A stretch of 64,000 nucleotides of DNA from Cymbomonas tetramitiformis (Eukaryota; Chlorophyta; Pyramimonadophyceae; Pyramimonadales; Pyramimonadaceae), in the NCBI GenBank assembly GCA_001247695.2, contig LGRX02030619.1, forward strand, positions 1 through 64,000. The letters run 5' to 3'. The translations under genes and the position numbers were made by a program. This document shows, piece after piece, positions 31,312 to 64,000 of this stretch; the first letter of the stretch is position 1, and the number at the start of each line of letters is the position of its first letter. The notes under the pieces are model-generated. The model ran no database searches. It was given only the letters and a program-made list of their open reading frames with translations, and was not told the DNA's origin.

Positions 31312-31667
31312 AAGTTCATTACAAATTTAGGGTTTCGTCCCCAAGAAGTTACATTTAAGTTGGGCATTCCACCTCAACTGCCAAGCATTCCGCTAAGCTG
31401 AAAGTACTAGCCTTCGTGGCTCTACATTCGTTACAATTCAACGGTCCGAGCCTCTGCCACGGCCTCTGCCGGCTGGTGACTACTATCCCGAGGTTGGGTC
31501 CTCTCACAAGGACCGAAGTAAAATGCGGCTCTTGCACGGATATTTACCTTACGACGATGTTACCCGCACATTTTTACATCATTTATGAGTCAAAACAATA
31601 GTTGAACATGTCGGATGGATTGGTTGCTCAATATCGGTCGTCATTAGACACGTGTGCTTTAGGTGTA
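31312..31667 (-). other. 5' remnant of the DIRS/PAT element and insertion target
   Basis: A short minus-strand open stretch carries CNECRATKASTF, perhaps the end of a gag-like zinc motif. The phrase GGTCCTCTCACAAGGACCG at about 31498 recurs at about 46120 on the other side of the Ty3 insertion. The last five bases, GTGTA, are the target duplication of the Ty3 element. Confidence 0.4.
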
Positions 31668-32094
31668 TGTGCTAGGAGGCAAGCACAAGAGCAAGAAAAA
31701 CGGCTAAGTATAAAACGCAGGAGTACTCAGTACGGAGTACAGTAGGACCGATCAGAATGATGTTGATGTGAGGTGCCTAGACTGTTGTACGGAGTACTCA
31801 GTACAGTTGAGTTATGGAAAGAGTTCCTGAATGTATAAGAACTCTAAGAGTAACCCGTTTCGGGGAGATGAACTGAACTGAAAAGTAAAACATAAAAGTA
31901 AAGAGCCGTAACTGCTGTATATTGTGTATTGAAAGCATGCACTGATAGCAAAAGCATAACTATATAGATTTACGAAACCGAAGTCTTGTAGTTGACCAAC
32001 CGTAAGCATACCTCGTGCGGTCGTTTAATAAGTGTAGAATAGTATAAGTCCGAAACCGTAAAGAAGAGAAGAAGTCAAGGTGTAGACTCCTACA
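31668..32094 (+). repeat. 5' LTR of the Ty3 element, 427 bp
   Basis: TGTGCTAGGAGG...CTCCTACA. It holds a TATAAAA box at 31709-31715. A palindrome-like phrase GAGTACTCAGTAC occurs twice (about 31721 and 31794), a candidate U3 regulatory repeat. Same sequence as 45658-46084. Confidence 0.95.
31709..31715 (+). promoter_or_regulatory. TATA box in the 5' LTR
   Basis: TATAAAA within GCTAAGTATAAAACGCAG, followed by the GAGTACTCAGTAC repeats. Position near the LTR start would make U3 very short, so a second TATA-like element further on (for example TATAAGAACT at about 31837) is an alternative. Confidence 0.4.
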
Positions 32095-32353
32095 AAATGG
32101 TAATTAGTTCGTGTTTTCACGTTGCTTCCTTGTCTTTCTTGCGCAAATTCTGATCAACCCGCCCCGCCTTGTGCGATTAGTTAGCGAGTACTTGCACTAC
32201 GAAATCGAGAATGCCTGTGCTCTCGTTCTTGTTGCGCGGTGGTGTGTGGGATTGATGGTTCCAGGTTGCTTGGAGCCGCGTCGTTGTGGAGAAATCTAGC
32301 TCGACGACAATCTTTTAAGGTGCGAGCGTTGCCTTAGTCCTAGCACGCATACA

Positions 32354-32688
32354 CGCATAGCACGCATATCCGTGCTTTTGGACTCGCAGGTGCGGGAAGA
32401 CCAAATCGCCTCCGTTTTTCGGCAATTCCGACCCTTCGCGGCGGAAGCGCTGCGCAAATTTTTCAATTTTGCGTAAGCCTTTGCTGAAATTCGGGGTTGG
32501 TTCGGGGTTTCCCCTACCTTTAATTTAGCCTTCTAGTCCCCCCTATTCGGGAATCTCCGCGCTTCGGCCGGTGTGCTTACTTGTGCTCGCGCGCAAGTGG
32601 CGTATTCCTGGGATCGGGTGCTAGTTGCCACGTGTGTCGTGTGCACTTTCGGTTTTAGCTAAATTAGATCTCACGCATAGCACGCATA
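32354..32688 (+). repeat. Direct repeat of a 15-mer in the Ty3 leader
   Basis: CGCATAGCACGCATA occurs at 32354-32368 and again at 32674-32688, the second copy ending two bases before the ATG at 32691. Function unknown; could be a packaging or translation signal, or the trace of a duplication. Confidence 0.6.
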
Positions 32689-32690
32689 CT

Positions 32691-32972
32691 ATGCCCATGT
32701 ATTCAGATGAAGAGGAATGCCTCGGTCGGTCGGGCCGGCGTGGGGGGGGTCGGGCCGGCGCCGCCCCCGGCTCGGCCGTGGGGTCCGGTCGGTCGGGGTC
32801 TCGCGCTGCGAACCTGCCAGCCGGCCCAGGCTCTGGGGAGTTCTGGGGCGCAGCAGGCGGGTCAGACAGCCGGGATTGGCGCTCCCGTGAGAGGGGGGGG
32901 GAGTGCGGCGCGCGCTTGCGCGCCAATACGGCGGTGAAGCCCTCGAGGTTACACCGGCGCGCACGCCCCTGA
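32691..32972 (+). CDS. Leader ORF feeding Gag by a -1 shift
   Basis: The first ATG of the element in good position starts MPMYSDEEECLGRSG, a Gly/Arg/Ala-rich disordered segment. It continues to 32972 in its own frame. The main gag frame has a stop at 32888-32890 and no ATG for about 200 codons. At 32893-32901 a G9 run provides the in-frame heptamer G-GGG-GGG (32894-32900); a -1 slip, or one extra G in the real sequence, joins this leader to gag. I therefore read it as the true Gag N-terminus rather than a separate protein. Confidence 0.55.
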   Translation: MPMYSDEEECLGRSGRRGGGRAGAAPGSAVGSGRSGSRAANLPAGPGSGEFWGAAGGSDSRDWRSRERGGECGARLRANTAVKPSRLHRRARP

Positions 32973-35900
32973 GAGCCCCTCCAGGGTTGTCTGGTGGGCC
33001 CCGTAGGGCCTCGCCACCAAAAGCCCCTTCACCAGCGAGGGTCAGTGGAGCTGAGCCAGTGTCCGAGCTCGCATTGAGCTCGGCGCTACGGCAGCCGGCG
33101 CGCCGGAAGCGTGCGTCGCCCGAGGCTCCGGCACCGCCGGCGGCAGGCGCCGGCTCCGGGTCGGACTCGGACCGCTCTGCTAAGGGGTTGAACCCCTCGG
33201 CAGCTCCCTTCTCCCCACTCCCTGCGTCCAGCAGGAGTGCGAGTAGTAGGGTCGTCCGTCAGGAACCGACGTCGGGACCGGCAGCATCCTCCCTCTCTTC
33301 CCTCGTGGGGAGCGAGCAAGGGAATCTCATCAGTGCCCCAGGGCGCTTTGAGGTTTACCGAGCCAGTGACTGGAGTCCCCCGGCAGAAGGGGAGTCTGAT
33401 GATGTCCGGCGCCCAGAGCAGCTAGACGTCGTCCAGTCACGGGGGCGCGAGTCTCGCATCCAGCCCAATCCGGCTTGGCGAGGAGAGCGACGTCAATCCA
33501 TGCTCGCATTGGCCCTCCGTCAATGGAGCACCTGGGCGCTGAATTCAGCGCAACGACGTGCGAGAGTCTCCCTGCCATCTCGTCAGCGCGCAACAGCGCG
33601 GCTTGCGTGGGTCGCATGGAGGGCCAGGACGGACCAGTCAGCGCATCAGCGCGAGCTCCGGCGCCTGGCATTCCAAGCGTGGAATGACGTCACCCAACAG
33701 GTCGCCCAACTTCAGGGCCTGTTTGACAAAGGCAGTCGGCGCCGGGTCGAGTCCGCTTTCGCAGCATGGCGCCAGCATGTCGTCCAGACACAGGGTCTGT
33801 GGCGCAGAGGCAGACGTCAAGCTGGAGCAGTCTTCATGGCATGGCACCAGCAGACGATGCTCGCCAAGGAGAGGAGCACCTGGTGGGTTGGAGCCCGGAG
33901 ACACCGGATGACCCAGATGGGCAGGAGGTGTCTTCGCGAGTGGCGCCGGCTCCCCAGGACGACCCCAGTCAGCTCGGACTCGTCCCAGGGAACGAGTGCT
34001 CGGCGTCCGGTAAGGAAGGCGGGAACCTCATCCGGTGTCAGCTCTTGCTCGGATTCCGACCAGAAGTCCATGTGGCAGGACATCCGTCGAGGCCTAAAGC
34101 GCCTGGGGAAAGACCACCCGCTGTCAGGGCTAATGTGGTTCCAGCTCGAGGACTATGGGCTCTCCGAGGACGGCGCTTATCGTCTGGAGATCCACCAGCA
34201 GTCAGTCTCCGAGTCCAGGGTGTTGATGCAGCAAAAGCGCGAGGACCCTCACAACTCCCTTGGGAGGTGTAGATTCTCTGTCTTTGCCATCAACGCCGGC
34301 AGACCAGGGGAGCTGGTACGCCAAGGGGCGGACCTCCAGGAGGTAAGGAGAGCGGTCGTCGCGGCCGTCAGAATGAGCGGCCGCACCCGGAAGTCACACA
34401 GGGGTCTTAGGAAGTCAGGTGCAGCACCTCCGAGTTCCGCAGCCCCCGGTGGGAACTGGTCGAACCGGTTTGCTCCCCTCTCGTCCTCATCGGAGGAAGA
34501 GCATCCCGCGGAACGTCCGAGGCCCAGGACTCAGGCGCCTAAGCCGAGCGGCCCCAGTCGCCCGGTGCCTCGCACCCGGAAGCCCAGTCGAGCACCATCG
34601 GTCCCGCACCCCGGTCCGACTTCCTCAGGGAACACGTCGTCGTCCCCGGAGTCCACTTCGAGCAGGAACAGTCAGGACCTGCAAGAGCTGAAGGAAGCCT
34701 GGCAGAAGGAGTCGCAAGCTCGGGAGGCAGCTGCCGAGGCTCGCCTGGAACAGCTGTCTCGGCAACTCCAAGAGAGTCAAAGAGCTGCCGAGGAGCGCAG
34801 GATCTCCGATCAGCGCGCTGCCGAGGAACGCAGGGTCTCCGAGCGACGCGCTGTCGAAGAGCGCTGGGCTGCAGACCGGCTGGCCGCAGAAGCCCGGGAG
34901 ACTGCCCGGCAGTTGGCTGTCGACGAGAGCGTCGCTCAGCAGGTAGCCGCCGAGGAGCGGCGAGCGGCAGCCGAGGCCCAGCTGGAGGAGAGGCTGCAGG
35001 CGGTCATAGAGTCACAAGTCCAAAGGCTCGCCCTGGTTCAGGCCTCGCCCCCAGGGCCCGTGGAGTCAGACGCTCGGGGGCCCTCAGCGGCAGCGTCGAG
35101 TCCGGTTCAGGAGACGCCCATCTCCCGAGAGGGACATGAGCTGGTAGAGCCGACTTCCGTCGTCACCTGTGACGTCGAAAACCGGGACGTTCAAAGCCCT
35201 CCGGAGGAGTCGCGCGCGGACGTGACAGCGTCTCCACCGCACTCATGGGACTTTATTTCCCTTCCTATACGGGTCTGCGACGCCCTCCGGAAACACGTGG
35301 TCGGGTATGCCAACTCGGGGATCGACGCCCAGCGCCTGTTTTACGACGCTGCTCGTAGGTATCGCGCCCTTGGTCAGGTCGCCGGGTGCTTACACCCTTC
35401 CAACCAGATCAGGCAGTGCCTGAAGGCAAAGTTCTCGGACGAGAACAGGGTCCTCGGGGCCCAGGTGATTCACAGTCTCACGACGGCCTTGGCGTCCGTC
35501 GCAGAGAGCTGCGCTCGATGTGGGTGCGGGCACGAGGAGAGCCCGGTGCGTATGTGGGCGTGTCAGGCAAGCGCTAAGAGAAGTGTGGTGGCGCTCATGA
35601 AAAAGGTGTACCTGCCGGTGTGTGGGTTTTGCGCCGCGGACGTGTGGCCCGGTGCTTTCGACCACTTTCCGGCTGTGATGCCACCTCCGATTCCTAAGGC
35701 GGCAGACACACCGGGAGACGGGGGGGGGATGGTCCCTCAACTGGAGCACTCGGAGCCAAACGAGCTTTCGGAGATGCCCGGTGCCGGCAGTCATGGTGGT
35801 CCTGGTGGCTCGGGGAGCGGTGACCCTGGAGGGCCGGGAGGCCCGGGGAGTCCGGACGAGGACCCTGGCGGCGATGGCGAAGACGGGGATGGCGACAGCC

Positions 35901-36997
35901 AGTTCACCTTCTCGTCTTCCTCTCGTTACAGGGAGCCCCGGAGCCATTACAGTCGTAAGGACGAGCAGCACGCTCTCAAGGAGGCCACCAGAGCCATGGA
36001 GAAGGCAGTGGACAAATACCACACAGAGGTGGAGGGGTCGTCCCACGTCTTTGGTCGGCTCCTCCGATTTGTTCGGCAGGTCAGGGAGGTTCGGGAACTG
36101 GAGCCGGTGCGCTACGCCATGGAGATGGCGCGTCTGGGACCACTAGAGAGCGGGGGTGAGGAGAAGGTGTTGTCGGACCACTCCCTGCTGTCAGAAGTGG
36201 CCAGACACTGCTTCGGCAAACTCAGCTCCGAGTACCGCGAGCTTTCTTCGGTGTTGACGGAGGCTCGGGAAGGTAAGAACCTCACCCTGGACGTCATAGT
36301 GGTTCCCTTGGCGCAGCTGGTGATGCCCGACAAGGGGGAAATGGCGTCGATCGGTCCGTTCCTGCGTCGCGTGCGTCAAAGTCAGGACAGACAGACTCGC
36401 ACGGTCCGCGAGTTCTGGGACGGGGTGCACCTTGCTCACGACATCGTGAGCATGCTGGCTGCCCACGAGCTCACCTCTCCGGTGCCGGAAGAGGAGCTGC
36501 TGGAGATATTCCTTACGGGATTGATACCGGAGATAAGGAGGAAGGTCTTCCTTATAGCCGAGAGGAAAGGCGCTTCGGTCCTGACTCTGAGCCGGACGGC
36601 CAGTAAAGGCCGCCACGAACTCCTGACTTGGGCCATAGAGGCCGAGCGGGAGTTGCGGCAGAGCCAGGATAAGACGAGCCGCCCGGTCCAGCTGCTGGCC
36701 CACGTAGATGTCACGGAAGAGCTGCTAGCCATGGCGACATCCGCTGGCGCTCCGACACCCACAGGGCAACGACTCGGCTCCCCAGAGTACGAGGGCTGCC
36801 GTCTGTGCAAGAGCATGGACCATTATGCCCGCGACTGTCCGCAGGCGAGCCAGCGCCCGAAGGAGTGGGCCAAGTGCCTCCTGGAGGACACCCTGGCGTT
36901 GATAGGGGACGAGTCGGTGGAGGAAGCTTTGGCTGCCATCGGTTTGGATTTTGTCCAGGAGGACGCTCCCCAGCCCGGGGCGTCCTCCCCGCAGTAA
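32903..36997 (+). CDS. gag: Gag polyprotein with Sfi1-like Trp repeats, coiled coil, capsid and zinc knuckle
   Basis: About 1,360 residues, far longer than usual Ty3 Gag. Order: a disordered Pro/Ser/Ala-rich start; residues about 205-350 with six A-x2-F/W-x2-W motifs (TARLAWVAWRA, RRLAFQAWNDV, ESAFAAWRQHV, GAVFMAWHQQT, RCLREWRRL) spaced 21-33 residues, resembling Sfi1 centrin-binding repeats; a long Glu/Arg/Ala coiled coil (about 592-702) built on AAEERR units; a Cys cluster (CARCGCG...CGFC, about 865-915); a Gly/Pro linker; a helical capsid (about 1015-1250); and a CCHC zinc knuckle CRLCKSMDHYARDC (about 1300). It assembles particles and binds RNA by family. The next ORF overlaps it in the -1 frame (open from 36673). 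Confidence 0.85.
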   Translation: MRRALARQYGGEALEVTPARTPLRAPPGLSGGPRRASPPKAPSPARVSGAEPVSELALSSALRQPARRKRASPEAPAPPAAGAGSGSDSDRSAKGLNPSAAPFSPLPASSRSASSRVVRQEPTSGPAASSLSSLVGSEQGNLISAPGRFEVYRASDWSPPAEGESDDVRRPEQLDVVQSRGRESRIQPNPAWRGERRQSMLALALRQWSTWALNSAQRRARVSLPSRQRATARLAWVAWRARTDQSAHQRELRRLAFQAWNDVTQQVAQLQGLFDKGSRRRVESAFAAWRQHVVQTQGLWRRGRRQAGAVFMAWHQQTMLAKERSTWWVGARRHRMTQMGRRCLREWRRLPRTTPVSSDSSQGTSARRPVRKAGTSSGVSSCSDSDQKSMWQDIRRGLKRLGKDHPLSGLMWFQLEDYGLSEDGAYRLEIHQQSVSESRVLMQQKREDPHNSLGRCRFSVFAINAGRPGELVRQGADLQEVRRAVVAAVRMSGRTRKSHRGLRKSGAAPPSSAAPGGNWSNRFAPLSSSSEEEHPAERPRPRTQAPKPSGPSRPVPRTRKPSRAPSVPHPGPTSSGNTSSSPESTSSRNSQDLQELKEAWQKESQAREAAAEARLEQLSRQLQESQRAAEERRISDQRAAEERRVSERRAVEERWAADRLAAEARETARQLAVDESVAQQVAAEERRAAAEAQLEERLQAVIESQVQRLALVQASPPGPVESDARGPSAAASSPVQETPISREGHELVEPTSVVTCDVENRDVQSPPEESRADVTASPPHSWDFISLPIRVCDALRKHVVGYANSGIDAQRLFYDAARRYRALGQVAGCLHPSNQIRQCLKAKFSDENRVLGAQVIHSLTTALASVAESCARCGCGHEESPVRMWACQASAKRSVVALMKKVYLPVCGFCAADVWPGAFDHFPAVMPPPIPKAADTPGDGGGMVPQLEHSEPNELSEMPGAGSHGGPGGSGSGDPGGPGGPGSPDEDPGGDGEDGDGDSQFTFSSSSRYREPRSHYSRKDEQHALKEATRAMEKAVDKYHTEVEGSSHVFGRLLRFVRQVREVRELEPVRYAMEMARLGPLESGGEEKVLSDHSLLSEVARHCFGKLSSEYRELSSVLTEAREGKNLTLDVIVVPLAQLVMPDKGEMASIGPFLRRVRQSQDRQTRTVREFWDGVHLAHDIVSMLAAHELTSPVPEEELLEIFLTGLIPEIRRKVFLIAERKGASVLTLSRTASKGRHELLTWAIEAERELRQSQDKTSRPVQLLAHVDVTEELLAMATSAGAPTPTGQRLGSPEYEGCRLCKSMDHYARDCPQASQRPKEWAKCLLEDTLALIGDESVEEALAAIGLDFVQEDAPQPGASSPQ

Positions 36998-38991
36998 AGG
37001 GCGCGGGCCCCGTCACTGCGGGGTCAGGGGGACAAAAGGGCCCCGCGCCGGCGTCCACAGCGATGCAGGTGCTGCATGATAGGTGGAGAAGGTGTGGGAG
37101 ACACCTTAGTGGCAGCGCCAGGCGCCACCTCAAGAGCCAGAGTCGAGTCGAGAGGTATGAGCAGGAAGGTTTAGACATGCTAGCCGCCACCCGCACGGAA
37201 AGCCCAGAGCCTCCTGAGCGGGAACAGGTCGAGCAGCGCGTCCAAAGAGAGCAGGCAAACTTCTGGAAGTCCGCCAGAACCCCAGCAACCGCCTCAGTTC
37301 CGCGTCCCGAGGAGCCGTGGGAGCTGCTCTGTTGGATCACCGGTGCGGACACCCGGGGTAAAAACCGGTCGAGCCACACAGTTGAGCCACGGGCAGTCTA
37401 CCAACAGCACCTGGAGAACCAGGGGTCGGATGTTGCGAGAGTTCGCGGGCACTGGAAGTTCAGAGCTCAGCGTTTACCCCCCAGAGTTAGGAAAGCCTTT
37501 CAGGCCCAGCAGCCAAGTGCTCGCCTGCGTTCCGCCATCAGGGCGCTAGAAAGGTATCTAAAGCTGGAAGAGTCAGAGGTCCGGCCAGTCAAGTCCCTTG
37601 CGCTTTGGAGGGCAGGGCAAAGGCGGATGAGACAGAAGCTTGGACCCACGACTAGTAAGCCCCAGTTGAATCGAGAAGAGTTAGATAAGCGCTTGAAGCG
37701 GCTCGTCAGGGTGCGCGAGTTCAATCGCCGACGCAAAGCCATCTTGGATCAGGAGTTCGGACGGTTTGTTCGCGTTGCCAAACCCAAGCCTGCCGAGGGA
37801 GAAGAACTCTCACCACCAGAGAGAACTTCAAAGCCCAGTCGGCCGTGGTTGACCCGAAGCAGGGCTCGCCAGGCTTTGGGCCCGAAACGCAGACCATGGC
37901 TGACTCCTGAAGACAAGGCGCTTCGAACCTCTCGATTGCAGCGCAGGTACGAGTTGGAGGGTAGGGACCCGGCTTCTACCTCAACAGAACGCCATGCGGA
38001 CTTCCACGCCTTCGTAAAGGAGGAGTTGGAAAGGGAGAATAGGGAACTTCAGCAAGACAATGAGCTGATGCACCGGGACGAGCAAGTCAGAAAGCACATA
38101 GCGGCTAAACTGGCTGCAGCGTCAGTCCAAGTCGCGGTGTCCCCACCAGACTTCCCAGAGCGCAGCGCAGTTCAGAAAGCAGTCGCCATCGGCCTGCTAG
38201 CGGACGCGTGTACTTACTGCCTCCCGGACTGTGACTCCGACGCAGAAACGTCAGTCACCCGCCTGGACTGCATAATGCAGGACGGCGATATCAGTCCGAG
38301 CTGGTGTGAGTCCCTGGCAGCGGTGTCCTCGATGGGAGTGCGCCCGAAGAGTTTCGACAGGCACAGTCGCACACCGACGTTGTTGCTGTTTTGGGCCTGG
38401 ATTGCGGGCGTCAGAGTCAAGGTGTTGGTGGATTCGGGAGCATCCACCAATATCATCGCAAAGAGTACACTGCAGAAGCTCTCCGGCGTCAAGCCGGTGC
38501 GCCACGAGCAAGCCATGCGGGTTCGAGTGGCTGACGGCACCACGTATGATGCTAATTCCTGCATCAGGCCCAAGCTCCTTGCTGAGACGTCGAAGGGGTC
38601 TTACGGCCAGCAGGTTGAGCTTCGGGTAATGCCACTCGACCTCAAGGTGGACGTCATCCTGGGGGGTCCTTGGCTGGCGAACCTTTCCCCGGTTACGCTG
38701 GATTATAAAAACTGGGGTTCGGTCCGGTTCACCAAGGGCAGGGAAGAGGTCGTCATCACCGGCTGTTCGCCGGGGTCACCGGACCCCAGTCGGTCCAAGG
38801 ACACGGCAATGGCACTGGTACAGGGAGTCCTTTTGAGCCAACGTCGGGCTCGCCGGGACCTGCGGACCCTCCGAAACAGAGAGGAGCAGGCTTTCGTCGT
38901 CTACCTCGGCCCCGATGGGACTTTTGGCGCGTTGGCCTGCAACAAGGGGGGGGAGACTCCGACGACGACGATTCCCCCAACGATGTTGTAG
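36805..38991 (+). CDS. Protease protein of the Ty3 element
   Basis: Long basic, helical N-terminal part followed by a retropepsin-like aspartic protease: catalytic DSGAS in VLVDSGASTNIIAKS (about 38430), then MRVRVADGT, ELRVMPLDLKVDVILGGPWL with the ILG strand. Cleaves the Gag-Pol precursor by family. It is in the -1 frame of gag, overlapping it by up to 325 bp; I found no canonical slippery heptamer in the overlap. An ATG at 37063, 65 bases after the gag stop, would allow separate initiation. It ends at 38991, but the G8 run at 38946-38953 contains the in-frame heptamer G-GGG-GGG (38946-38952) where a -1 slip leads directly into Pol. Confidence 0.82.
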   Translation: MQEHGPLCPRLSAGEPAPEGVGQVPPGGHPGVDRGRVGGGSFGCHRFGFCPGGRSPARGVLPAVKGAGPVTAGSGGQKGPAPASTAMQVLHDRWRRCGRHLSGSARRHLKSQSRVERYEQEGLDMLAATRTESPEPPEREQVEQRVQREQANFWKSARTPATASVPRPEEPWELLCWITGADTRGKNRSSHTVEPRAVYQQHLENQGSDVARVRGHWKFRAQRLPPRVRKAFQAQQPSARLRSAIRALERYLKLEESEVRPVKSLALWRAGQRRMRQKLGPTTSKPQLNREELDKRLKRLVRVREFNRRRKAILDQEFGRFVRVAKPKPAEGEELSPPERTSKPSRPWLTRSRARQALGPKRRPWLTPEDKALRTSRLQRRYELEGRDPASTSTERHADFHAFVKEELERENRELQQDNELMHRDEQVRKHIAAKLAAASVQVAVSPPDFPERSAVQKAVAIGLLADACTYCLPDCDSDAETSVTRLDCIMQDGDISPSWCESLAAVSSMGVRPKSFDRHSRTPTLLLFWAWIAGVRVKVLVDSGASTNIIAKSTLQKLSGVKPVRHEQAMRVRVADGTTYDANSCIRPKLLAETSKGSYGQQVELRVMPLDLKVDVILGGPWLANLSPVTLDYKNWGSVRFTKGREEVVITGCSPGSPDPSRSKDTAMALVQGVLLSQRRARRDLRTLRNREEQAFVVYLGPDGTFGALACNKGGETPTTTIPPTML

Positions 38992-39041
38992 CAGGCCTAG
39001 CGTCAGAACCCTCCTCCGGGTCCGAGGATAGTGAAGTCAGC

Positions 39042-42000
39042 GTGCGTCCCAGCGCAACGGTGCCGGACGGAGCTGAGGAGTCTGAGGGGCCGGGAGGGTT
39101 GGTCTCGGACAGTTCCGGGTCCGGCTACAGTGACGTGGAAGGAGCGTGTCATTTGCAGAGAGTAGGGGCGGTGGTCGAGGATATTAGGCCACAAGGATTT
39201 GCGAGTACGGTCGACGAGGCCGGGGATCACCCTGACCCTCTCAGCTTTTTCGCTAGCAAACAGGAGGCGAACGGAGCATTTGCGTTGCTTCCGCCAGCGG
39301 TGCGTAGACAGGCGATAGAGGATCACGCGGCCGGGAAGCCACCCACCTGGCACGCGCAGGCAGCCGCGGCGCTCCAGCAGGGCCGGGGTCTGGTCGCGGA
39401 GCGACGACCCCGAGCACGGCGTAAGCGAGTGCGTTGGCGTGACCAGGTCGCAGCAGTCGGTCAGCCTGGTGCTGAAAGTGGCCCCTCCACCGAGCAGCCA
39501 CCGGGACCGAAAGTCCCCACTGTCCCGAGTCCTCAGAGTCAGAAGTCGCGAGCCTCGGCACCAGTCCCGTCGCCAGCTCCGCAGACCACAGACCCGCCGG
39601 TACCGGCCGCCCCGCCAGGTACTACCTCGCCGCCAGCCCCACAGACTGCTCAGGCCTCCCCGGAACCGCCGGAGGACGAGATAGACGAGACGGTGTCGCC
39701 GGAAATCTGGCAGCAGCTTAGGGACCTGGAAAAGGAGTTCGCAGATGTCATTTGCACAGAGTTGCCGGAATCAGTCCAGTCAAGGGAATTCAAGTCCGGC
39801 GTCCGGCTCAGGCCAGATTGGAATGGGAACGCCTTGCACCGGCGAGGGTACAAGCTGTCGCAGGAGGAGTTGCGGCAACTCCGGCAACAGCTAGATGAGC
39901 TCTTAGCCAAAGGGTACATACGACCCTCGGCCTCTCCGTGGGGCTGCCCTGTGCTGATGGTCCCCAAGCCGAGTAATCCCAAGGAGTTGCGTCTAGTCAT
40001 TGACTACAGACAGATCAATGAGATCACAGTCAAGGACAAGTACCCCCTCCCGGATGTCCAGAGTCTCTTAGATGATCTACAAGGGGCTACCGTCTTCTCT
40101 ACGATGGATGCCCTTTGGGGATTTTGGCAGGTCCCTATGAAAGCAGAGGACGTGGAGAAAACCGCAATGACTACGCACTTTGGAGCGTACGAGTGGTTGG
40201 TCATGCCTATGGGATTGTCAAACTCCCCAAGTACCTGGCAAAGGATGATGCAACAGTACCTCGGGCACCTACCCTTTTGCAGAGTATTTGTAGATGACAT
40301 CATGATTTTCTCGGCTGAGGTTCCGGGTAAGAGCGCCCATGAGGTACACCTCGACCACCTCCGCCAGGTCCTGGAGGCATGCCGAAAGAATTCAGTCTAC
40401 CTCAAAAAGTCGAAAGTCAAATTGTGCAAGCGATCAGTCCGGTTCCTAGGGCATGTGGTGGATCGGGATGGATGTCGTCCACAGCAGGATAAGGTTGCGT
40501 CGGTACGCGATTGGCCAGACCTAGAAACTGTCACACACGTGCGACAGTTTCTGGGCATGTGTGGCTTCTACCGGAGGTACATCCAGAACTTCGCAGATAT
40601 CGCGTACCCGTTGACCCGCCTCACCAAATCCGGCGTGGACTGGACCTGGGGCGAGAATGAAAAGGCAGCATTTAAACAGCTAAAAACTGCCTTGATCTCC
40701 TCCCCAGCCTTGGCCCTACCCGATCAAAAGGGTGCAGCAGACGGCTCCAGACCCTTTTTTGTGCAGACAGATGCCAGTGGAGTAGCACTAGGGGGTGTAC
40801 TCATGCAGGATCAGGGACGAGGCTTACAGCCCTTGGCCTTTGAAAGCCGGCAGTTCTCCAGCGCTGAGCAGAACTATCACGCTGGGGAACGGGAGCTTTG
40901 TGCCATCCATCACTGCACCACGGTCACCTGGAGACATTATCTGATTTTCACATCATTTAAGCTCATGGGAGACCATAAACCCCTTCAGTGGCTCTTCGCC
41001 CCAGCTAGGGAGCTCAGCCGACGTCAGGCTCGCTGGTACGAGGACTTGGTAGAGGTAGGAGTCCATCAGATGGAGCACGTGCCAGGGCGCTGTTTAGTAG
41101 TACCAGACGCGCAGTCCCGGCGACCAGACTATCAGGAAATGTCAGCCAGAGAAGGGTTGAAGGAAAAAGGGATTGTGGATCGCGCCACGGATGGGCCCAG
41201 AGACTCCGCACCGGCAGGCAAGGGGTCCGAAGAGGACGAGGATCCTACCTCTGTCCTCGGGGCAGTGGATCGCACCACCGATGTATCTGATGGACCCGGG
41301 TACTCTGAGCCGAAAGGCAAGAGATGCGAAGGGGACGAGGATCCCACATCTGTCTTAGGCGCCACCTTCGAGTATAGTGATTCCGAGGACGAGTCCTTCC
41401 CTCCCACCAGTCCAGCACCGGTCATTGGTGAGCTCACCCATCTGAATGGGCTCACGTGGGTAGAGTCGCCGGCCCTTTGGCTGGACGCAGCTGCCACCCT
41501 AGCAGTAGGCGAAAAATCCTTGAGGGATGCCGAATCGCTAGCAGTCATGACCAGAGCAGACCGAGCTAGGGAACAGGCCACAGCAGAAGTCCAGAGTCAC
41601 CCGAAGTTCCCCCACCCTGAGGCCCAGAGTCATCCAAAGGCGGCCGGAAAGGTACCTGAGCCCGTTAAGCCCCCAGAAAGTAGCTCCCACTACGACCAGG
41701 TCGTAGATCGCCAGGACTGGAAGCTGATCAGGGAGCGCTTTGAGGAGATAGCAGCCCAGTACGGGGTGTTTGACGTTGACGCGTGTTGCGACTCCATGGG
41801 CGTTAACCGGCAGGTTGACACCTATTGGACCGATTGCTTGAAGGAAAAGTGGCGCGGGAAACACGTTTGGTGCAACCCCCCTTACACGAAGGATTCAGAC
41901 TTGATAGAAAGAATTCTTCGGCATTTCCTTGCTGAGTGGCGCGCCGATCCGGAAAACACCTCGGCGATGTTCCTTCTGCCAGACTATGACGCCCCCTGGA

Positions 42001-44936
42001 GGCGGTTGATTCACCCCAAGTATGGGCTTCATCCGGTCAAAGTCTTTGACACGAAGGACGAAAAAGGTCGTCCCAACCACCTCTTCGAGTCCCCTGATGG
42101 AGGTCGACCCCCGCTGCGCTGGCCGGTCCTTCTGGTGTGGGCCCCAGCAGCCAGCAGGGCAAAGCCCCGAGCGCCGCCTGCGCGAAAGGACAATGAGGCA
42201 GAATCCGACGAACCTTTAGTCACTACAGGGGTTGCAGCAAGGGCCAGGGCGGCATCAGGCCCACTGAAGGCTGATGAGTTCGTCCGCGCCTTGCAAGCGG
42301 AATACGAACGCAGCCAGTACCTCAGCTCGTTGAAGGAGGAACTGATCGCAGCCCCACATCAGAGGACAGACACATTTCGCATGGTAGACGACATGATATG
42401 GCGAGTGGCAGAAGGGCGGTATCAGCTAGTGCTAGCTCAGGATTCCCCCCTCAGAGAGCTGGTGATGCGCGAAGCACACGAGTCCCCAGCAGCAGGGCAC
42501 ACAGGAAGGGATAAGACACTGGACAGAGTATCCCGTCGCTTTTGGTGGCCACGCATGAGCAAGGATGTCACCGACTGGTGCAAATCCTGCGTTGTGTGCC
42601 AACAGACCCGGCCACGCAACGGGTATCCAGACGGTCAGCTTAACCCCCTGCAAGTCCCAGTAAGACTGTGGCAAGTGGTTAGTATCGACTTCGTCACTGG
42701 GCTGCCCCGCACAGAGCGAGGGTACGACGCGTTTGCTACCTTCACGGACAAGTTGTCCAAGATGGTGCACGTAGTCCCCATGCTTTACGCTGACAGCTCA
42801 GCTGCACAGATCGCGCGCATGTATTTCGACCAAGTGTGGCGTTTGCACGGCGCTCCCATGAAGATCGTCTGTGATCGGGACTCCCGCTTCAGGGATGAGA
42901 TGCATCTCGAGCTACATCGGTTGATGGGAGTCCAGGTTGCCTCTACCACGCCGTACCACCCACAAGGTGATGGGCAGGCAGAGCACACAAACCACACGGT
43001 CGAACGCATGTTGCGCGCGTACGTCGACGCCAACCAGCACGATTGGGATTTATGGTGTACCCCGGTCGAGTACGCCATTAATGACTCTCGTTCCGCCGTC
43101 ACGGGATTCACCCCTTTTGAACTGACGTATGGTCACGCTCCGGCCTCTCAGCTGGACTTCTTCGTGGAGGCAGCACTTGCATCACGGAGAGGCCGAGCTA
43201 AGGGGGGGAGGGGCGCAGCAGTAAAAAAGGGTACAGCCCACGAGACAGCCCGCCAATTTGTTCGCCAGTTGCAGCTCGCTAGGGAGAAGCTGCTCTTAGC
43301 TCAGCAGCAACAGATCGCCCAGTACGACGCGCGTCACAGGTCCAGGAGTTACGCAGTAGGCGATGAGGTTTGGGTGGATGCCACGCACCTCACCCAGCCG
43401 GGCGACCGCGGGTTGCACAAGAAATTGCTTAAGAAGCGCCTTGGGCCCCTTCGGGTGCTGGAAGTCTTTCACAGCGACAGGCAGATGGCCCTTCCCGCGA
43501 GCGATAGAGGCGCACCGTCGGCCTATAGGTTGCAGACGCCTAAGCAGTGGAAAGTGCACGATGTGTTTACCGTGGACCGGCTTTCGCCAGTAGAGTCGGG
43601 CAGCCGCTTCGTTGAGAGAGCTAAGGAGATTCCCCCTCCTCCGTTGGACGTCAGCGGGCGCAAGGAAACCCACGTCGAGAGGGTGGAGCGTTCGCGCACG
43701 CGCCAGCGCCAGGGCAAGAGGTGGACAGAGTACCTGGTCAAGTGGACAGGAATGCCCCGCAGTGAGAACGAGTGGAAGACCCGAGAGGATCTGGAGTGGG
43801 ACGGAGCCGGCAGGCCCGGTGTTCCCAACCGAGCGTTGTTGGAGTTTGAGAGGATCGAGGCTAAGAGAGTGGAGCGAGAGAAGCTTAGGGTCCGTAAGAG
43901 ACGCGACGAGTCCGCAGGAGCGGTATGGACCACGCTATCGGAGGAGCTCAAGGTAGACGGAGCAATGCCATGGGTGCCAGAGGAGAGGTTTGATGAGGAG
44001 GTAGGAACTTTCGCGAGAGTATCTGCTCAGAGCACCCTGCCGCCAGTCAACGGAGCCGCAGCACTTGAGAAGGAGCCAGTCGGCCAGTCTAAGATTCTTG
44101 TATTGTTTTGTGGGACCGGGTCAGTCGAGAGGCAGTTCACTAAGCAATTTCCCAACAGCGAAGTAGTTGCTGTAGACATTCAGCCCAAGTGGGGCCCCAC
44201 ACATTGCGAGGATATCATGCGATGGGACTATCGACAGTTCAGACCAGGACACTTCGACGTAGTCTGGGCTAGCCCACCTTGCACAGAGTACAGCCAAGCG
44301 AAGACGGTAGGCATCCGAGATTTGCGTGCTGCGGACAGGCGAGTTCGTAGGACATTGGAGATCATCCGGTACTTGAGGCCCGAAGCATACTTCATTGAGA
44401 ACCCGAGGGGAAGAGAGCCCCACGGGTTGCACACGCGTCGCTGCATGAGCAATCTACCAGCTCCGCACCTCGTCACGTACTGCAAATACGGGACCGCATA
44501 CAGGAAGCCCACGCACATCTGGACCAACGTTCCGTTGCGCACACCCTTGCGAGTGTGCGATTCCGATACGCCTTGCGAGTTCTTCCGGCAGCACGGTAGG
44601 CACGAGAAAGTAGCGCAAGGAGGGCGCGCGATGAGAGCCGGAGGTGTGTTCGCGAAGGGCATGGGAGCGCGAGAGAATTTGTATGGGATTCCGTCAGCAC
44701 TGTTAAAACAGCTTTTCCACAACCTGACCCTACATGAAGAGGTGCATGCGTTCCTGTCTGAACTGCTTGTCAGGGAGGAGCTGAGCGAGATGAGCGTTTT
44801 AGTCCAGTCAGCTGTTGTTGAGAGTGACCCGCCCGAGTTTGAGCCGGAACCGATAGCGTTAGCAGGAGTGCGAGCGGAGGTGACGATCATACCTGAGGGC
44901 GGATGGGAATCTGACGCGAGTGGTCTTAGCGATTGA
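39042..44936 (+). CDS. pol: Pol: RT, RNase H, Dam-like methylase, integrase, chromodomain, C5 cytosine methylase
   Basis: Frame open from 38946 after the G8 run. Domains: RT (about 39840-40330; VIDYRQIN, VDD at 417-419); RNase H (Asp 577 in QTDASG, GERELCAIHH, GDHKPL, VVPDAQSR); an acidic linker with a duplicated DEDPTSVLGA unit; Dam-like methylase (about 41686-42160; FDVDACCDS, NPPY at 945-948); integrase with H-x7-H and C-x2-C zinc site, then D1216, D1278, E1314 (DD35E); chromodomain (about 43670-43860; YLVKWTGMP); and C5 methylase (44090-44720) with motif I LFCGTGSV, motif IV SPPCTEYS (nucleophile Cys 1747), motif VI ENPRG and YCKYGTAYRKPTHIWTN. All catalytic residues I could place are present. 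The chromodomain probably steers integration to marked chromatin; the methylases may modify element or target DNA, but this is inference. Confidence 0.93.
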   Translation: MRPSATVPDGAEESEGPGGLVSDSSGSGYSDVEGACHLQRVGAVVEDIRPQGFASTVDEAGDHPDPLSFFASKQEANGAFALLPPAVRRQAIEDHAAGKPPTWHAQAAAALQQGRGLVAERRPRARRKRVRWRDQVAAVGQPGAESGPSTEQPPGPKVPTVPSPQSQKSRASAPVPSPAPQTTDPPVPAAPPGTTSPPAPQTAQASPEPPEDEIDETVSPEIWQQLRDLEKEFADVICTELPESVQSREFKSGVRLRPDWNGNALHRRGYKLSQEELRQLRQQLDELLAKGYIRPSASPWGCPVLMVPKPSNPKELRLVIDYRQINEITVKDKYPLPDVQSLLDDLQGATVFSTMDALWGFWQVPMKAEDVEKTAMTTHFGAYEWLVMPMGLSNSPSTWQRMMQQYLGHLPFCRVFVDDIMIFSAEVPGKSAHEVHLDHLRQVLEACRKNSVYLKKSKVKLCKRSVRFLGHVVDRDGCRPQQDKVASVRDWPDLETVTHVRQFLGMCGFYRRYIQNFADIAYPLTRLTKSGVDWTWGENEKAAFKQLKTALISSPALALPDQKGAADGSRPFFVQTDASGVALGGVLMQDQGRGLQPLAFESRQFSSAEQNYHAGERELCAIHHCTTVTWRHYLIFTSFKLMGDHKPLQWLFAPARELSRRQARWYEDLVEVGVHQMEHVPGRCLVVPDAQSRRPDYQEMSAREGLKEKGIVDRATDGPRDSAPAGKGSEEDEDPTSVLGAVDRTTDVSDGPGYSEPKGKRCEGDEDPTSVLGATFEYSDSEDESFPPTSPAPVIGELTHLNGLTWVESPALWLDAAATLAVGEKSLRDAESLAVMTRADRAREQATAEVQSHPKFPHPEAQSHPKAAGKVPEPVKPPESSSHYDQVVDRQDWKLIRERFEEIAAQYGVFDVDACCDSMGVNRQVDTYWTDCLKEKWRGKHVWCNPPYTKDSDLIERILRHFLAEWRADPENTSAMFLLPDYDAPWRRLIHPKYGLHPVKVFDTKDEKGRPNHLFESPDGGRPPLRWPVLLVWAPAASRAKPRAPPARKDNEAESDEPLVTTGVAARARAASGPLKADEFVRALQAEYERSQYLSSLKEELIAAPHQRTDTFRMVDDMIWRVAEGRYQLVLAQDSPLRELVMREAHESPAAGHTGRDKTLDRVSRRFWWPRMSKDVTDWCKSCVVCQQTRPRNGYPDGQLNPLQVPVRLWQVVSIDFVTGLPRTERGYDAFATFTDKLSKMVHVVPMLYADSSAAQIARMYFDQVWRLHGAPMKIVCDRDSRFRDEMHLELHRLMGVQVASTTPYHPQGDGQAEHTNHTVERMLRAYVDANQHDWDLWCTPVEYAINDSRSAVTGFTPFELTYGHAPASQLDFFVEAALASRRGRAKGGRGAAVKKGTAHETARQFVRQLQLAREKLLLAQQQQIAQYDARHRSRSYAVGDEVWVDATHLTQPGDRGLHKKLLKKRLGPLRVLEVFHSDRQMALPASDRGAPSAYRLQTPKQWKVHDVFTVDRLSPVESGSRFVERAKEIPPPPLDVSGRKETHVERVERSRTRQRQGKRWTEYLVKWTGMPRSENEWKTREDLEWDGAGRPGVPNRALLEFERIEAKRVEREKLRVRKRRDESAGAVWTTLSEELKVDGAMPWVPEERFDEEVGTFARVSAQSTLPPVNGAAALEKEPVGQSKILVLFCGTGSVERQFTKQFPNSEVVAVDIQPKWGPTHCEDIMRWDYRQFRPGHFDVVWASPPCTEYSQAKTVGIRDLRAADRRVRRTLEIIRYLRPEAYFIENPRGREPHGLHTRRCMSNLPAPHLVTYCKYGTAYRKPTHIWTNVPLRTPLRVCDSDTPCEFFRQHGRHEKVAQGGRAMRAGGVFAKGMGARENLYGIPSALLKQLFHNLTLHEEVHAFLSELLVREELSEMSVLVQSAVVESDPPEFEPEPIALAGVRAEVTIIPEGGWESDASGLSD

Positions 44937-44939
44937 GAG

Positions 44940-45260
44940 CGTTGGGGAGCGTCGGGAAGAGCGGTGGCTCCAGCCTTGGCGAGACCAGGCGGCAGGTGAG
45001 AACCTGGGTAATCCATCCGAGAGAGCAGTGGCTCTAGCCTCGGCACAGCCAGGCAACAGGTGGAAATCTGTATAATCCATTTGAGCAGTGGCTCTAAGCC
45101 TTGGTATGACCAAGCGGCAGGTGAGAACCTGGGTAATCTATCCAAGCGAGCAGTGGCTCTAGCCTCGGCGCGACCAGGCAACAGGTGGAAATCTGTATAA
45201 TCCATTTCACGAGAGCATTGGCTCCGGACCTGGCACGACCGGGCAGCAGTTGGAGATCTG
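44940..45260 (+). repeat. Structured tandem repeats in the Ty3 3' untranslated region
   Basis: Five units of about 60 bp built on GAGCAGTGGCTCTAGCCTCGG, a GACCAGGC phrase and CAGGTGGAAATCTGTATAAT. Two unit types alternate: A with GTGAGAACCTGGGTAAT and B with GTGGAAATCTGTATAAT. Each can fold into short stem-loops. They lie after the Pol stop, where packaging or export signals may sit. Related GATCTGTATAA phrases follow to 45600. Confidence 0.7.
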
Positions 45261-45643
45261 GGTAAAAGCTCTAGCACTCCGAGGAGGCGGTGAAGGTTTA
45301 AAACCTTTCCTCCGGGCCGGCATCCCGAGAACTGTCAGGTAATTGGCAAACCTATTGTCATCCCCTGTAAGTGTACCGTGTTGGGAGGTTTAAAACCTTG
45401 AGCGTGGTAATGGATGTGAAACCTTGAGCCTTGGGGGAGCCTGGTAGTGCAGATGGCAGACCGGTGAGAGGCCGACCCTTGTGCTTAAGAGGTCGATCTC
45501 CTTATTGCGGTGTGTCTTGGGAAGTGTAATGTCATCCCAGACAACAGGCGGCTGAGACCTGTATAATCATTCAGAGCAACAGTAGAAGATCTGTATAAAA
45601 ACTTTACTGGTCCGACGTGGTCAGCGTGGACGTGACCTTCCCT

Positions 45644-45656
45644 AAGGGGGGGGGAG
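45644..45656 (+). promoter_or_regulatory. Polypurine tract of the Ty3 element
   Basis: AAGGGGGGGGGAG immediately before the 3' LTR start at 45658, the expected plus-strand primer site. Confidence 0.85.
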
Positions 45657-45657
45657 T

Positions 45658-46084
45658 TGTGCTAGGAGGCAAGCACAAGAGCAAGAAAAACGGCTAAGTA
45701 TAAAACGCAGGAGTACTCAGTACGGAGTACAGTAGGACCGATCAGAATGATGTTGATGTGAGGTGCCTAGACTGTTGTACGGAGTACTCAGTACAGTTGA
45801 GTTATGGAAAGAGTTCCTGAATGTATAAGAACTCTAAGAGTAACCCGTTTCGGGGAGATGAACTGAACTGAAAAGTAAAACATAAAAGTAAAGAGCCGTA
45901 ACTGCTGTATATTGTGTATTGAAAGCATGCACTGATAGCAAAAGCATAACTATATAGATTTACGAAACCGAAGTCTTGTAGTTGACCAACCGTAAGCATA
46001 CCTCGTGCGGTCGTTTAATAAGTGTAGAATAGTATAAGTCCGAAACCGTAAAGAAGAGAAGAAGTCAAGGTGTAGACTCCTACA
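45658..46084 (+). repeat. 3' LTR of the Ty3 element, 427 bp
   Basis: By eye identical to 31668-32094. Followed by GTGTA, the target duplication. TATAAAA at 45699-45705. Confidence 0.95.
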
Positions 46085-46435
46085 GTGTATAATTTAATTC
46101 AAAATTAATTCAAAAACCCGGTCCTCTCACAAGGACCGGACTCCCCAACACCCTTTGGACCCACTAGATGGCCTCTGGAGGGCATATATTCTTGCACACT
46201 TCGACTTTGGGACTTAATGTTGATGTGAGAACCGCACACGCCCTTGGTTTTGCACTTTACCATTTTGAGGGCACGTCACATAAGGCACCACCCTCAAAAT
46301 ATTTGAGACGGCGGTATTTGTGCGTGATTTATTTTTATATGTGATAGGGTGGAGCTATGAACCAATGCCACAAAAATGATCGGATTGCCATGGATACACT
46401 TTCTAAAAGATTTCATATGTATATGCATTCAGTTG
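46085..46435. other. Flank of the Ty3 insertion; possible intron
   Basis: Continuation of the sequence interrupted by the Ty3 element. Contains CGGTCCTCTCACAAGGACCG, a perfect hairpin (compare about 31498). No exon of the downstream DDE gene could be identified here. Confidence 0.35.
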
Positions 46436-46940
46436 GGTTAAGCTAATGAGCAGGTTTTCTTTTTTTTATAGAATTCTCTTAAAGTTTAAATGTTTGTGCA
46501 TATTCCTGAAATCTTGCCAAAACTGCTCATTAAGCTAATGAGCAGGTTTTCTTCTTTTTTATAGAATTCCCTTGAAGTATAAATGTTTGTGCATATTCCG
46601 GAAATTTTGCCAAAACTGCTCATTAAGCTAATGAGCAGGTTTTCTTCTTTTTCATAAAATTCTTTAAAAGTATAAATGTTTGTGCATATTCCTGAAATTT
46701 TGCCAAAACTGCTCATTAAGCTAATGAGCAGGGTTTCTTCTTTTTTATAAAATTCCCTTGGTGTATAAATGTTTGTGCATATTCCTGAAATTTTGCCAAA
46801 ACTGCTCATTAAGCTAATGAGCAGTTTTTCTTCTTTTTTATAAAATTCCCTTGGTGTATAAATGTTTGTGCATATTTCTGAAATTTTGCCAAAACTGCTC
46901 ATTAAGCTAATGAGCAGGTTTTCTTCTTTTTTATAGAATT
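46436..46940. repeat. Tandem repeat, five to six 93-bp units
   Basis: The phrase AGCTAATGAGCAG starts at 46441, 46533, 46626, 46719, 46812 and 46905. Each unit has a 7-bp stem GCTCATT...AATGAGC with a 5-base loop. This is followed by a pyrimidine run ending TATAG or TATAAA and then AATTC. The array lies directly before the exon at 46963, so it is probably intronic. As 93 is divisible by three, the minus strand stays open by chance. Confidence 0.92.
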
Positions 46941-46962
46941 CACTTTGCTTGTATATTTACAG

Positions 46963-62198: not shown

Positions 62199-63992
62199 TC
62201 AGCCATGCTTATGGATGCGTGATATGCTTTTCTGATCGAACAGGTGCTCGAAGAGTTGACGAAGCAATCCAGCGGGAAGAGGGTATACAGCAGTGGAAAC
62301 TCCCGCTCCTTGTTGCCCTGGATGAGGTCCCAGTTGAGCAGTTTCCGGATGTGATCCCAGAGTCTGTTGGTGAAGACAAGGAGTATCCATCGTGCAGTAC
62401 CGTAGATCCACTGGAGGAGGCGACTGCGTCCAGATGCAAGTAGGCTTGCGATAGCCAGTACCATACATACAGTAAGAGCAATACAACGGGGTAGGTAACC
62501 GGCGAACTACGGGTCGAAATCGCAGCGCAAAAGGAAACCTGCCCATCGGATTTTCCATAAACCAATGCTGGGGTTTGAGAAAGTCAAAAATTTGGAGCGT
62601 TCGGCGTACACAAGCATCAGCCTGTCGCAGTTGTCGCACCCCAGTGGTCTTAGCCTGACTGTATTCGGTGCACGGTGGACTAGCCCAGATGACGTCAAAG
62701 TAACCAGGTGCATAACGCTTGAAGTCCCAGTCCTGAACCTTCTCAGCGTAGGTAGGTTGCCAGCGAGGATCATGATCGACGGTGACCACAGTGCTCTTCG
62801 GATAACATGACATGAAACTTCTCTCCACACTTCCTGTACCACTGAAAAGGACTAGTAGTCGCAACTCGCGTGTCGAGACCCCAGAGCCCAGAAGAGCTAG
62901 ATGCGTCACAAAGGCGTCAGCGGAGCGACAGTATTGTTCCCAAGGTAGGCAGTTGTCCAGAGAAGTGAGTTTTACTTCATCAGAGGTGTCCAGGAAAGTT
63001 AAAGCTCCGACGCGTTCCCGCCTTTGCTTCCGCTGCATTCTGACCTCCTGTAAGGCTTTTTCCCGGGCTTGTCCTTCTCGTGATAGTCTCAGGTGTTCGA
63101 ACTCCGTGAGCTGTTCGAGTTCACCCCCGTAGTTCAACGACTCACGGGTCTTCCAGGAGTCATGAGCGTTAGAGTACCCAGTCCAGCGAACCAGAAATTC
63201 TTCTACTTCCTTGCCTCCTTTCATAGGTTTCACTCTTCGAGCCAGAATCTTAGACACATGGGTCTGGGATTGTCCATCCACGAGAACCTTGGCAGGAGTA
63301 GGTATTTGTCGACGCAGCGCAAAGGCTTCATCCGCGGTGCGGTATTCCTTGAGGCGATGCTGCGCAAAAACATCGTGGATACGCCATTTAGGGGGTAACT
63401 TGAGCCGGTAAGCCACCGGAGCACCTCTGTCAATTTCGGGTAGCTCTCGCTGCTGGTCGCTGAAGAACCTCTCGGTGATGGGTAAGGGCCCGTGCCAGCG
63501 AGGTCCCAGCTTCCTGAAGGATTCGCGGTTCATGATATTTTCCGTGAGATGCTTGGCATCTACCCAGACCAAGTCTCCTAACTGAAAGGATTTGGCGGTG
63601 TGACGCTGGTCAAACTGATGTCGCTGGCGTTGCTGTGCCAGTTCTAGCTTAGTGCGGGCGTCCTCTAGTTGAGCCGCGAATTTACTAGCCATCTCGTGTG
63701 CCGTACCTTCTCCACCCTTACGCTTGGAGTGTTGTCCAGCAGCCGCTTGCAGGAACAAGTCCAGTTGCGACATAGGCGAGTGCCCCAAGACCAACTCAAA
63801 CGGGGTAAAGCCGGTTACATCGCTCCGCGTATCGTTTATGGCGAACTCTACGTTGGCACACCACAAATCCCAGTCCTCTGGATTGCTGCCTACGAAGGAC
63901 CTTAGCATGTCTTCTACCACGCGGTTGGTATGTTCAGCTTGTCCGTCCGAACGAGGGTTGTAAGGCGTGGTGGAGGCCACTTTAGTTCCCAT
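62199..63992 (-). CDS. pol: Pol C-terminal part of a second Ty3 chromovirus: integrase, chromodomain, C5 methylase (partial at window edge)
   Basis: Begins inside the integrase core (STTPYNPRSDGQAEHTN, holding the catalytic Glu) because the window ends. It continues through the integrase C-terminus (GDLVWVDAKHL, GPLPITERF), a chromodomain (FLVRWTGYSNAHDSWKT, about 63080-63260), a basic linker, and a C5 cytosine methylase (about 62860-62330). The methylase has LVLFSGTGSVERSF, WASPPCTEYSQAKT (Cys codon 62672-62670), MENPMG and YCMYGTGYRKPTCIWT. It shares domain order with the element at 31668-46084 but differs in much of its sequence, so it is a distinct family. No internal stop. Confidence 0.9.
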   Translation of the reverse strand: MGTKVASTTPYNPRSDGQAEHTNRVVEDMLRSFVGSNPEDWDLWCANVEFAINDTRSDVTGFTPFELVLGHSPMSQLDLFLQAAAGQHSKRKGGEGTAHEMASKFAAQLEDARTKLELAQQRQRHQFDQRHTAKSFQLGDLVWVDAKHLTENIMNRESFRKLGPRWHGPLPITERFFSDQQRELPEIDRGAPVAYRLKLPPKWRIHDVFAQHRLKEYRTADEAFALRRQIPTPAKVLVDGQSQTHVSKILARRVKPMKGGKEVEEFLVRWTGYSNAHDSWKTRESLNYGGELEQLTEFEHLRLSREGQAREKALQEVRMQRKQRRERVGALTFLDTSDEVKLTSLDNCLPWEQYCRSADAFVTHLALLGSGVSTRELRLLVLFSGTGSVERSFMSCYPKSTVVTVDHDPRWQPTYAEKVQDWDFKRYAPGYFDVIWASPPCTEYSQAKTTGVRQLRQADACVRRTLQIFDFLKPQHWFMENPMGRFPFALRFRPVVRRLPTPLYCSYCMYGTGYRKPTCIWTQSPPPVDLRYCTMDTPCLHQQTLGSHPETAQLGPHPGQQGAGVSTAVYPLPAGLLRQLFEHLFDQKSISRIHKHG

Positions 63993-64000
63993 AAGTCTCA

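Follow-up and report, generated by a model that had tools for sequence, protein, structure and literature searches.

Can a single retrotransposon polyprotein carry the means to methylate both adenine and cytosine, and if so, to what end? This question is raised by a 64,000-nucleotide stretch of DNA from the green alga Cymbomonas tetramitiformis (contig LGRX02030619.1 of assembly GCA_001247695.2, positions 1 to 64,000; here, the window), which contains a Ty3/gypsy long terminal repeat (LTR) retrotransposon. A preliminary description, drawn from the sequence without database searches, had placed a Dam-like adenine methyltransferase between RNase H and integrase, and a C5 cytosine methyltransferase behind the chromodomain, in one 1964-codon Pol frame. 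We located that frame at 39042-44936, and profiles, motifs and a predicted C5 fold bear out both domain identities and their order: reverse transcriptase (RT), RNase H (RH), Dam, integrase (IN), SH3, chromodomain and C5. Our analysis shows this architecture, the homology of the two domains to known methyltransferases and their co-occurrence in diverged members of the lineage.

Two methyltransferase domains in one Pol frame

The Pol frame and its domains are as follows.

39042..44936 (plus strand), Pol frame, 1964 codons
39960..40457 (plus), reverse transcriptase; RVT_1 2.5e-30, FVDD at 40287
40647..41051 (plus), RNase H; RT_RNaseH 8.8e-28
41697..42146 (plus), Dam-like N6-adenine methyltransferase domain; PF05869 2.1e-8, NPPY at 41874-41885
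42444..42962 (plus), integrase, H2C2 zinc domain (1.2e-23) and rve core (3e-4, below cut-off)
42684, 42867 and 42972 (plus), integrase D, D and E stretches
43359..43592 (plus), Tf2-1-like SH3 domain of the integrase; PF24626 6.1e-5, below cut-off
43671..43796 (plus), chromodomain; PF00385 1.6e-7, above cut-off
44091..44726 (plus), small phage-type C5 cytosine methyltransferase; profiles, motifs and predicted fold
44103-44129, 44271-44294 and 44394-44411 (plus), C5 motifs: GTG motif, SPPCTEYS and IENPRG

The Dam segment passes the Pfam threshold for PF05869 (34.4 bits against a cut-off of 28.1), and TIGR01712 matches the region at 24.2 bits, under its equivalog cut-off of 97. The segment also matches a profile of Dam proteins from phage contigs (5e-20; hhalign, 99.6%). 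This profile was built from 9 of 80 kept IMG/VR loci, and because these loci had themselves been found with the element's Dam, the match indicates homology to free proteins and is not an independent discovery. Scans of viral contigs with the element's own Dam alone returned no relatives; once the Dam of a diverged relative (L017, described below) was added, 152 relatives were found, of which 80 were kept. Judged by homology alone, the Dam segment is predicted to have a methyltransferase fold.

C5 cytosine DNA methyltransferases carry the motifs FxGxG, PC and ENx, with QxRxR as the canonical motif VIII and a large target-recognition domain. The first three of these motifs, together with a predicted C5 fold, were found in the window domain, which is only about 212 residues long, and YC.YG...KPT.IWTN occupies the place of motif VIII in most alignment rows. 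A simple Pfam call does not capture the domain: the DNA_methylase family (PF00145) scores 19.5 bits (7.3e-4), below its cut-off of 22. The identification of C5 comes instead from a profile of small standalone C5 proteins (5.1e-78), a PHROGs match (phrog_757, 2.6e-17) and the predicted fold. Like its Dam counterpart, the standalone profile was built from proteins found using the window's own C5, and it therefore indicates homology to free proteins rather than an independent discovery.

Most of the predicted C5 model can be aligned with the DNA enzymes DNMT3A, M.HhaI and HaeIII methylase, and on this prediction the segment has the methyltransferase fold that the preliminary description had called for. 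The best fold matches are DNMT3, although the fold alone cannot settle kinship with Dnmt3. PDB sequence searches with Dam and C5 returned nothing in one case and a single chance match (E 0.64) in the other. We rejected chance motifs as an explanation on the basis of the profiles, a shuffled-column control and the fold.

These similarities also bear on the substrate. One or both domains could target RNA, whether the element's genomic RNA or host RNA; Pol proteins encounter RNA besides cDNA, and an RNA role has been suggested for a LINE DNMT (PMC5890265). Relatives are, however, annotated as DNA methyltransferases, and the enzymes that align with the C5 model point the same way, although the substrate is not proved thereby. 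We consider an RNA target very improbable, and DNA the substrate to be preferred.

All catalytic motifs named in the preliminary description are intact in the window, with NPPY at exactly the position it gave. In a 22-row alignment, NPPY is kept in 17 of the 21 rows with the motif region, and PPC and ENP are intact in all 15 rows that reach these motifs; among the remaining rows five are gapped there, P0020 has other letters and P0023 has nearly none. On this alignment, almost every protein that has the C5 domain seems to require its motifs.

Recurrence of the pair in relatives

A search with the Dam region identified 25 database polyproteins, 19 of them named Cymbomonas. C5 covers at least 106 profile positions in 13 of the 25 and is a stub in P0021; the other 11 gave no match, in a database where many gene models are truncated. 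Counting Pfam matches only, 24 of the 26 members (the window among them) have Dam and 13 have DNA_methylase. Chromodomain and C5 are also joined in the short database proteins P0032 and P0045.

The pair extends to a more distant relative. L017, one of two relatives from a scan of genome contigs with the C5 alignment, carries RNase H, Dam, integrase, chromodomain and C5 in one frame of 1325 amino acids (aa). Over the span from Dam to C5 it shares 36% identity with the window protein, and it retains NPPY, SPPCTEYS and ENP. L017 is filed as a Verrucomicrobiaceae metagenome-assembled genome; we rejected a bacterial origin because a retrotransposon Pol is encoded, and take it as a misbinned contig, which is not proved. 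Just 3' of its Dam-C5 Pol (L017:4391-8863, plus strand), an open frame runs for 1491 codons or more, and no Pfam family matches it with confidence. The lineage comprises Ty3/gypsy chromodomain retrotransposons of a prasinophyte green alga and of at least one other source.

The window itself holds part of another member.

62199..63998 (minus), second, diverged element: integrase part, chromodomain and C5 with SPPCTEYS; cut by the window end

This element is 45-61% identical to the database polyproteins compared, and its PF00145 score of 23.0 bits lies above the cut-off of 22. It ends at the window edge before any Dam is readable.

Phylogenetic analysis of 56 of the 141 C5 rows placed 14 polyprotein rows, 15 retroelement-like fragments and four other short proteins on one side of a branch with 100/94 support, and 23 standalone proteins on the other. 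This unrooted tree would be compatible with a single capture of C5. The same well-supported P0001-like clade appears in the RT-RH, Dam, integrase and C5 trees. An approximately unbiased (AU) test rejected the 14 polyprotein C5 rows as one clade (p 0.0001), a result that is uninformative, with near-identical fragments such as P0027 left outside the group.

Purifying selection on both domains

We searched the genome (851.7 Mb in 25,745 contigs) with Dam; there were 7,257 candidates at first look, and 150 of 150 scored candidates matched. The family is very abundant in this marine green alga. Among 20 stretches chosen for listed frames of at least 2380 aa, 17 encode both domains in one open reading frame (ORF), with NPPY in Dam and SPPC in C5, so that an open frame across both domains, which the preliminary description had expected of other copies, is found in this P0016-like family. 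L110 and L116 have Dam and C5 in different frames, and in L118 no C5 was found in ORFs of at least 150 aa. Eight further genome loci of about 3 kb were too short to judge, and L105 is the same place as L107.

The copies compared for selection belong to the P0016-like family and not to the window's own. Across 17 copies in two divergence bins, the ratio of nonsynonymous to synonymous substitution rates (dN/dS) is 0.06 and 0.03 for Dam and 0.35 and 0.39 for C5. For 14 copies (91 pairs) it is 0.057 for Dam and 0.131 for C5, beside 0.047 for RNase H, 0.051 for the integrase core, 0.155 for RT, 0.226 for the chromodomain and 0.70 for the RH-Dam linker. Both methyltransferase domains are thus under purifying selection in one family. 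Identity of the window protein to diverged members (close relatives P0002 and P0007 left out) is 44-56% in Dam and 47-54% in C5; it is 51-76% in RNase H and the integrase core, 29-41% in the chromodomain, and 23-33%, 15-27% and 28-44% in the RH-Dam, chromodomain-C5 and Dam-IN linkers, respectively.

These data dispose of a trivial origin for the pair, namely a chance fusion, an assembly chimera or a dead passenger. The window copy does have a frame change before Pol, but the Dam-C5 pair recurs in diverged families, in L017 and in 17 of the 20 chosen stretches, C5 is present in the second window element and dN/dS is low. An artifact or passenger has next to no chance of being correct and is refuted within this analysis; a pair maintained for some function is the reading taken up below.

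Possible roles of the methyltransferases

On balance, we think it probable that this lineage took in two phage- or prokaryote-type methyltransferases, which mark the incoming copy or its site for host chromatin. The Dam-type domain would have entered after RNase H, and the small C5 methylase after the chromodomain of the integrase. After processing, Dam would go with reverse transcriptase and RNase H and encounter new cDNA, and C5 would go with the integrase-chromodomain part and encounter cDNA ends and target chromatin. N6-methyladenine (6mA) and 5-methylcytosine (5mC) would be placed on the incoming copy or insertion site, and the marked chromatin of the host might then accept the marked copy or let it blend in.

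That selection has kept both methylases suggests chemical self-marking of the element's DNA; from this we infer possible effects on silencing or integration. A more specific version is a two-chemistry writing kit, with 6mA assigned to the reverse-transcription module and 5mC to the integrase-chromodomain module, by which new copies would set their own chromatin state. We put this forward tentatively and regard it as somewhat doubtful. For elements with a single DNMT, self-methylation of retrotranscribed DNA has been proposed and de novo CG methylation by retrotransposon DNMTs reported, according to De Mendoza et al. (PMC5890265).

Several observations weigh against a maintained, self-marking pair. 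CpG observed/expected is 0.87 in the element against 0.86-0.88 in its flanks, with no trace of CpG decay; since the copy is young, such decay need not show, and CG methylation is neither supported nor excluded. GATC and CpG counts gave nothing striking. In L108, one of the 14 genome copies, ETP replaces ENP, and the Pfam Dam score of L017 is 27.4 bits against the cut-off of 28.1, with PF00145 not listed. The C5 dN/dS falls from 0.35-0.39 to 0.13 only once L117, L119 and L121, which have a partial C5 match, are dropped, and the copies, from a family other than the window's, were picked for long open frames and compared in pairs that are not independent. This choice of open frames biases dN/dS, yet the RH-Dam linker within the same ORFs is near neutral. 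Finally, P0022, P0023 and P0024 have lost NPPY and P0020 reads NPPF instead, which indicates that some families can do without adenine methylation. The Dam motif looks dispensable in some families, and the C5 motifs look more constantly kept.

These changes in NPPY are what favors an alternative in which C5 alone is enzymatic and Dam, lying between RNase H and integrase, is kept as a folded domain that acts as a spacer or binds nucleic acid. The three database proteins that lost the motif retain most of the Dam domain, and a position behind RNase H could fit a tether role. Against it stands the conservation of NPPY in most rows, including one as diverged as L017; the Dam dN/dS of 0.06 cannot separate fold from catalysis. 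We regard a noncatalytic Dam as unlikely, and two active enzymes as the better reading.

Apart from these proteins, genome loci L099-L104 have shorter frames, with a WCNPPF variant in five of the six and no WC motif found in L100. They are perhaps a separate family in decay.

The marks could also work to the opposite effect, as self-limitation: new copies would be methylated and silenced by the host, which would thereby be spared. The chromodomain beside C5 could direct the methylase to already marked chromatin; adenine marks, on the other hand, are not known to silence in general. Such repeats are reported to combine very high coverage with transcript levels that are ordinary (PMC5741210), which would fit self-limitation; we nonetheless judge this reading quite improbable. 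Marking that serves the incoming copy remains our preferred explanation.

Structure and age of the element

The remaining features of the element are listed below.

31668-46084 (plus), whole LTR element, 14,417 bp
31663..31667, target-site duplication GTGTA, left copy, read from sequence
31668..32094 (plus), 5' LTR, 427 bp, TG...CA ends, no difference from 3' LTR
32891..36997 (plus), gag-like frame, 1368 codons stop to stop; zinc knuckle about 36794-36844
36673..38991 (plus), protease frame; aspartyl protease about 38398-38670, Asp_protease_2 2.6e-7
38946..38953 (plus), run of eight G; nearby switch of match from protease frame to Pol frame
44972..45207 (plus), two 111-bp direct repeats, spacing 125 bp, in the 3' untranslated part
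45644..45656 (plus), polypurine tract adjoining the 3' LTR, read by eye
45658..46084 (plus), 3' LTR, from LTR comparison
46085..46089, target-site duplication GTGTA, right copy

Direct LTRs with TG...CA ends, a GTGTA duplication on both flanks and the order protease-RT-RNase H-integrase (protease in another frame) assign the element to Ty3/gypsy, and the chromodomain behind the integrase makes it a probable chromovirus. Membership in DIRS was rejected: an H2C2/rve integrase and direct LTRs are present, and none of the three frames lists a recombinase family. The LTRs match at all 427 of 427 bp, in agreement with the young age suggested earlier. Proteins CYMTET_12107 and CYMTET_13849 of C. tetramitiformis are 99% identical to pieces of the element.

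The gag-like frame with its zinc knuckle (zf-CCHC 0.0028, below the Pfam cut-off) is followed by the protease frame and then by Pol. Protease and Pol parts are joined in one protein in 8 of 9 related database proteins compared, and P0002 and P0004 cross the junction within 5-10 residues. The window copy may be broken at this frame change, or there may be an assembly error there; some database models may instead bridge the junction by a predicted intron.

Several other features surround the element.

30421-31311 (minus), just left of the element: reverse transcriptase fragment, RVT_1 2.4e-10
46360-47034, directly behind the element: tandem array, 93-bp spacing
47414-49267 (plus), long frame with DUF7869, 1.3e-43
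56204-60410 (plus), three long frames close or overlapping (407, 348 and 647 codons), none with a confident Pfam family

Comparison with known systems

A Cymbomonas pol has been related to Chlamyvir, and nanopore reads of C. tetramitiformis were made for its assembly (PMC10675990). In the same alga, Burns et al. 2015 reported homology to chromodomain, RNase H and cytosine DNA methyltransferase in three of the four scaffolds with over 10,000-fold coverage (PMC5741210). These high-copy repeats are probably the same kind of elements, although in that text they are not described as one polyprotein and Dam is not mentioned. Algal DNA transposons are reported to carry a gene that is ParB-like plus N4C/N6A methyltransferase (PMC12477816).

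Precedents for C5 methylases in retrotransposons, to which the preliminary description had pointed, do exist, but they are of another kind, being captures of host-type Dnmt3 or an orphan LINE type (PMC5890265) rather than the small phage type indicated here. KnitGypsy-Dnmt3 of Klebsormidium nitens is likewise a Gypsy element whose Pol frame includes a C5 methylase, and purifying selection acts there too (Ka/Ks in that paper is below 0.2); the element differs in its host-type Dnmt3 and DIRS-like repeats, with no mention of Dam in the text seen, whereas the window element has a small phage-type C5 plus Dam and direct LTRs. SymbioLINE-Dnmt and SymbioDIRS-Dnmt3 of Symbiodinium share the presence of C5 methylases in high-copy retrotransposons but belong to other element classes, with C5 alone described there (PMC5890265). 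DIRS-type retrotransposons resemble the window element in a methyltransferase straight behind RT and RNase H (PMC3266345; Dam-type according to PMC5890265), and differ in having a tyrosine recombinase, no rve integrase and, in the standard form, no C5.

In the literature searched, with most subscription papers and Repbase reports outside its reach, no paper turned up that describes the two methylases together in one Ty3 Pol, and none in the same open literature that describes a phage-type C5 joined to an integrase chromodomain. The homologous phage domains, Dam (PF05869, TIGR01712, phrog_111) and small C5 (phrog_757), are there unfused to Pol. Methylases in retrotransposons are known singly; here two unrelated phage-type ones stand together in one Ty3 Pol, both under purifying selection, and this suggests that base marking is of use to the retrotransposon during its life cycle.
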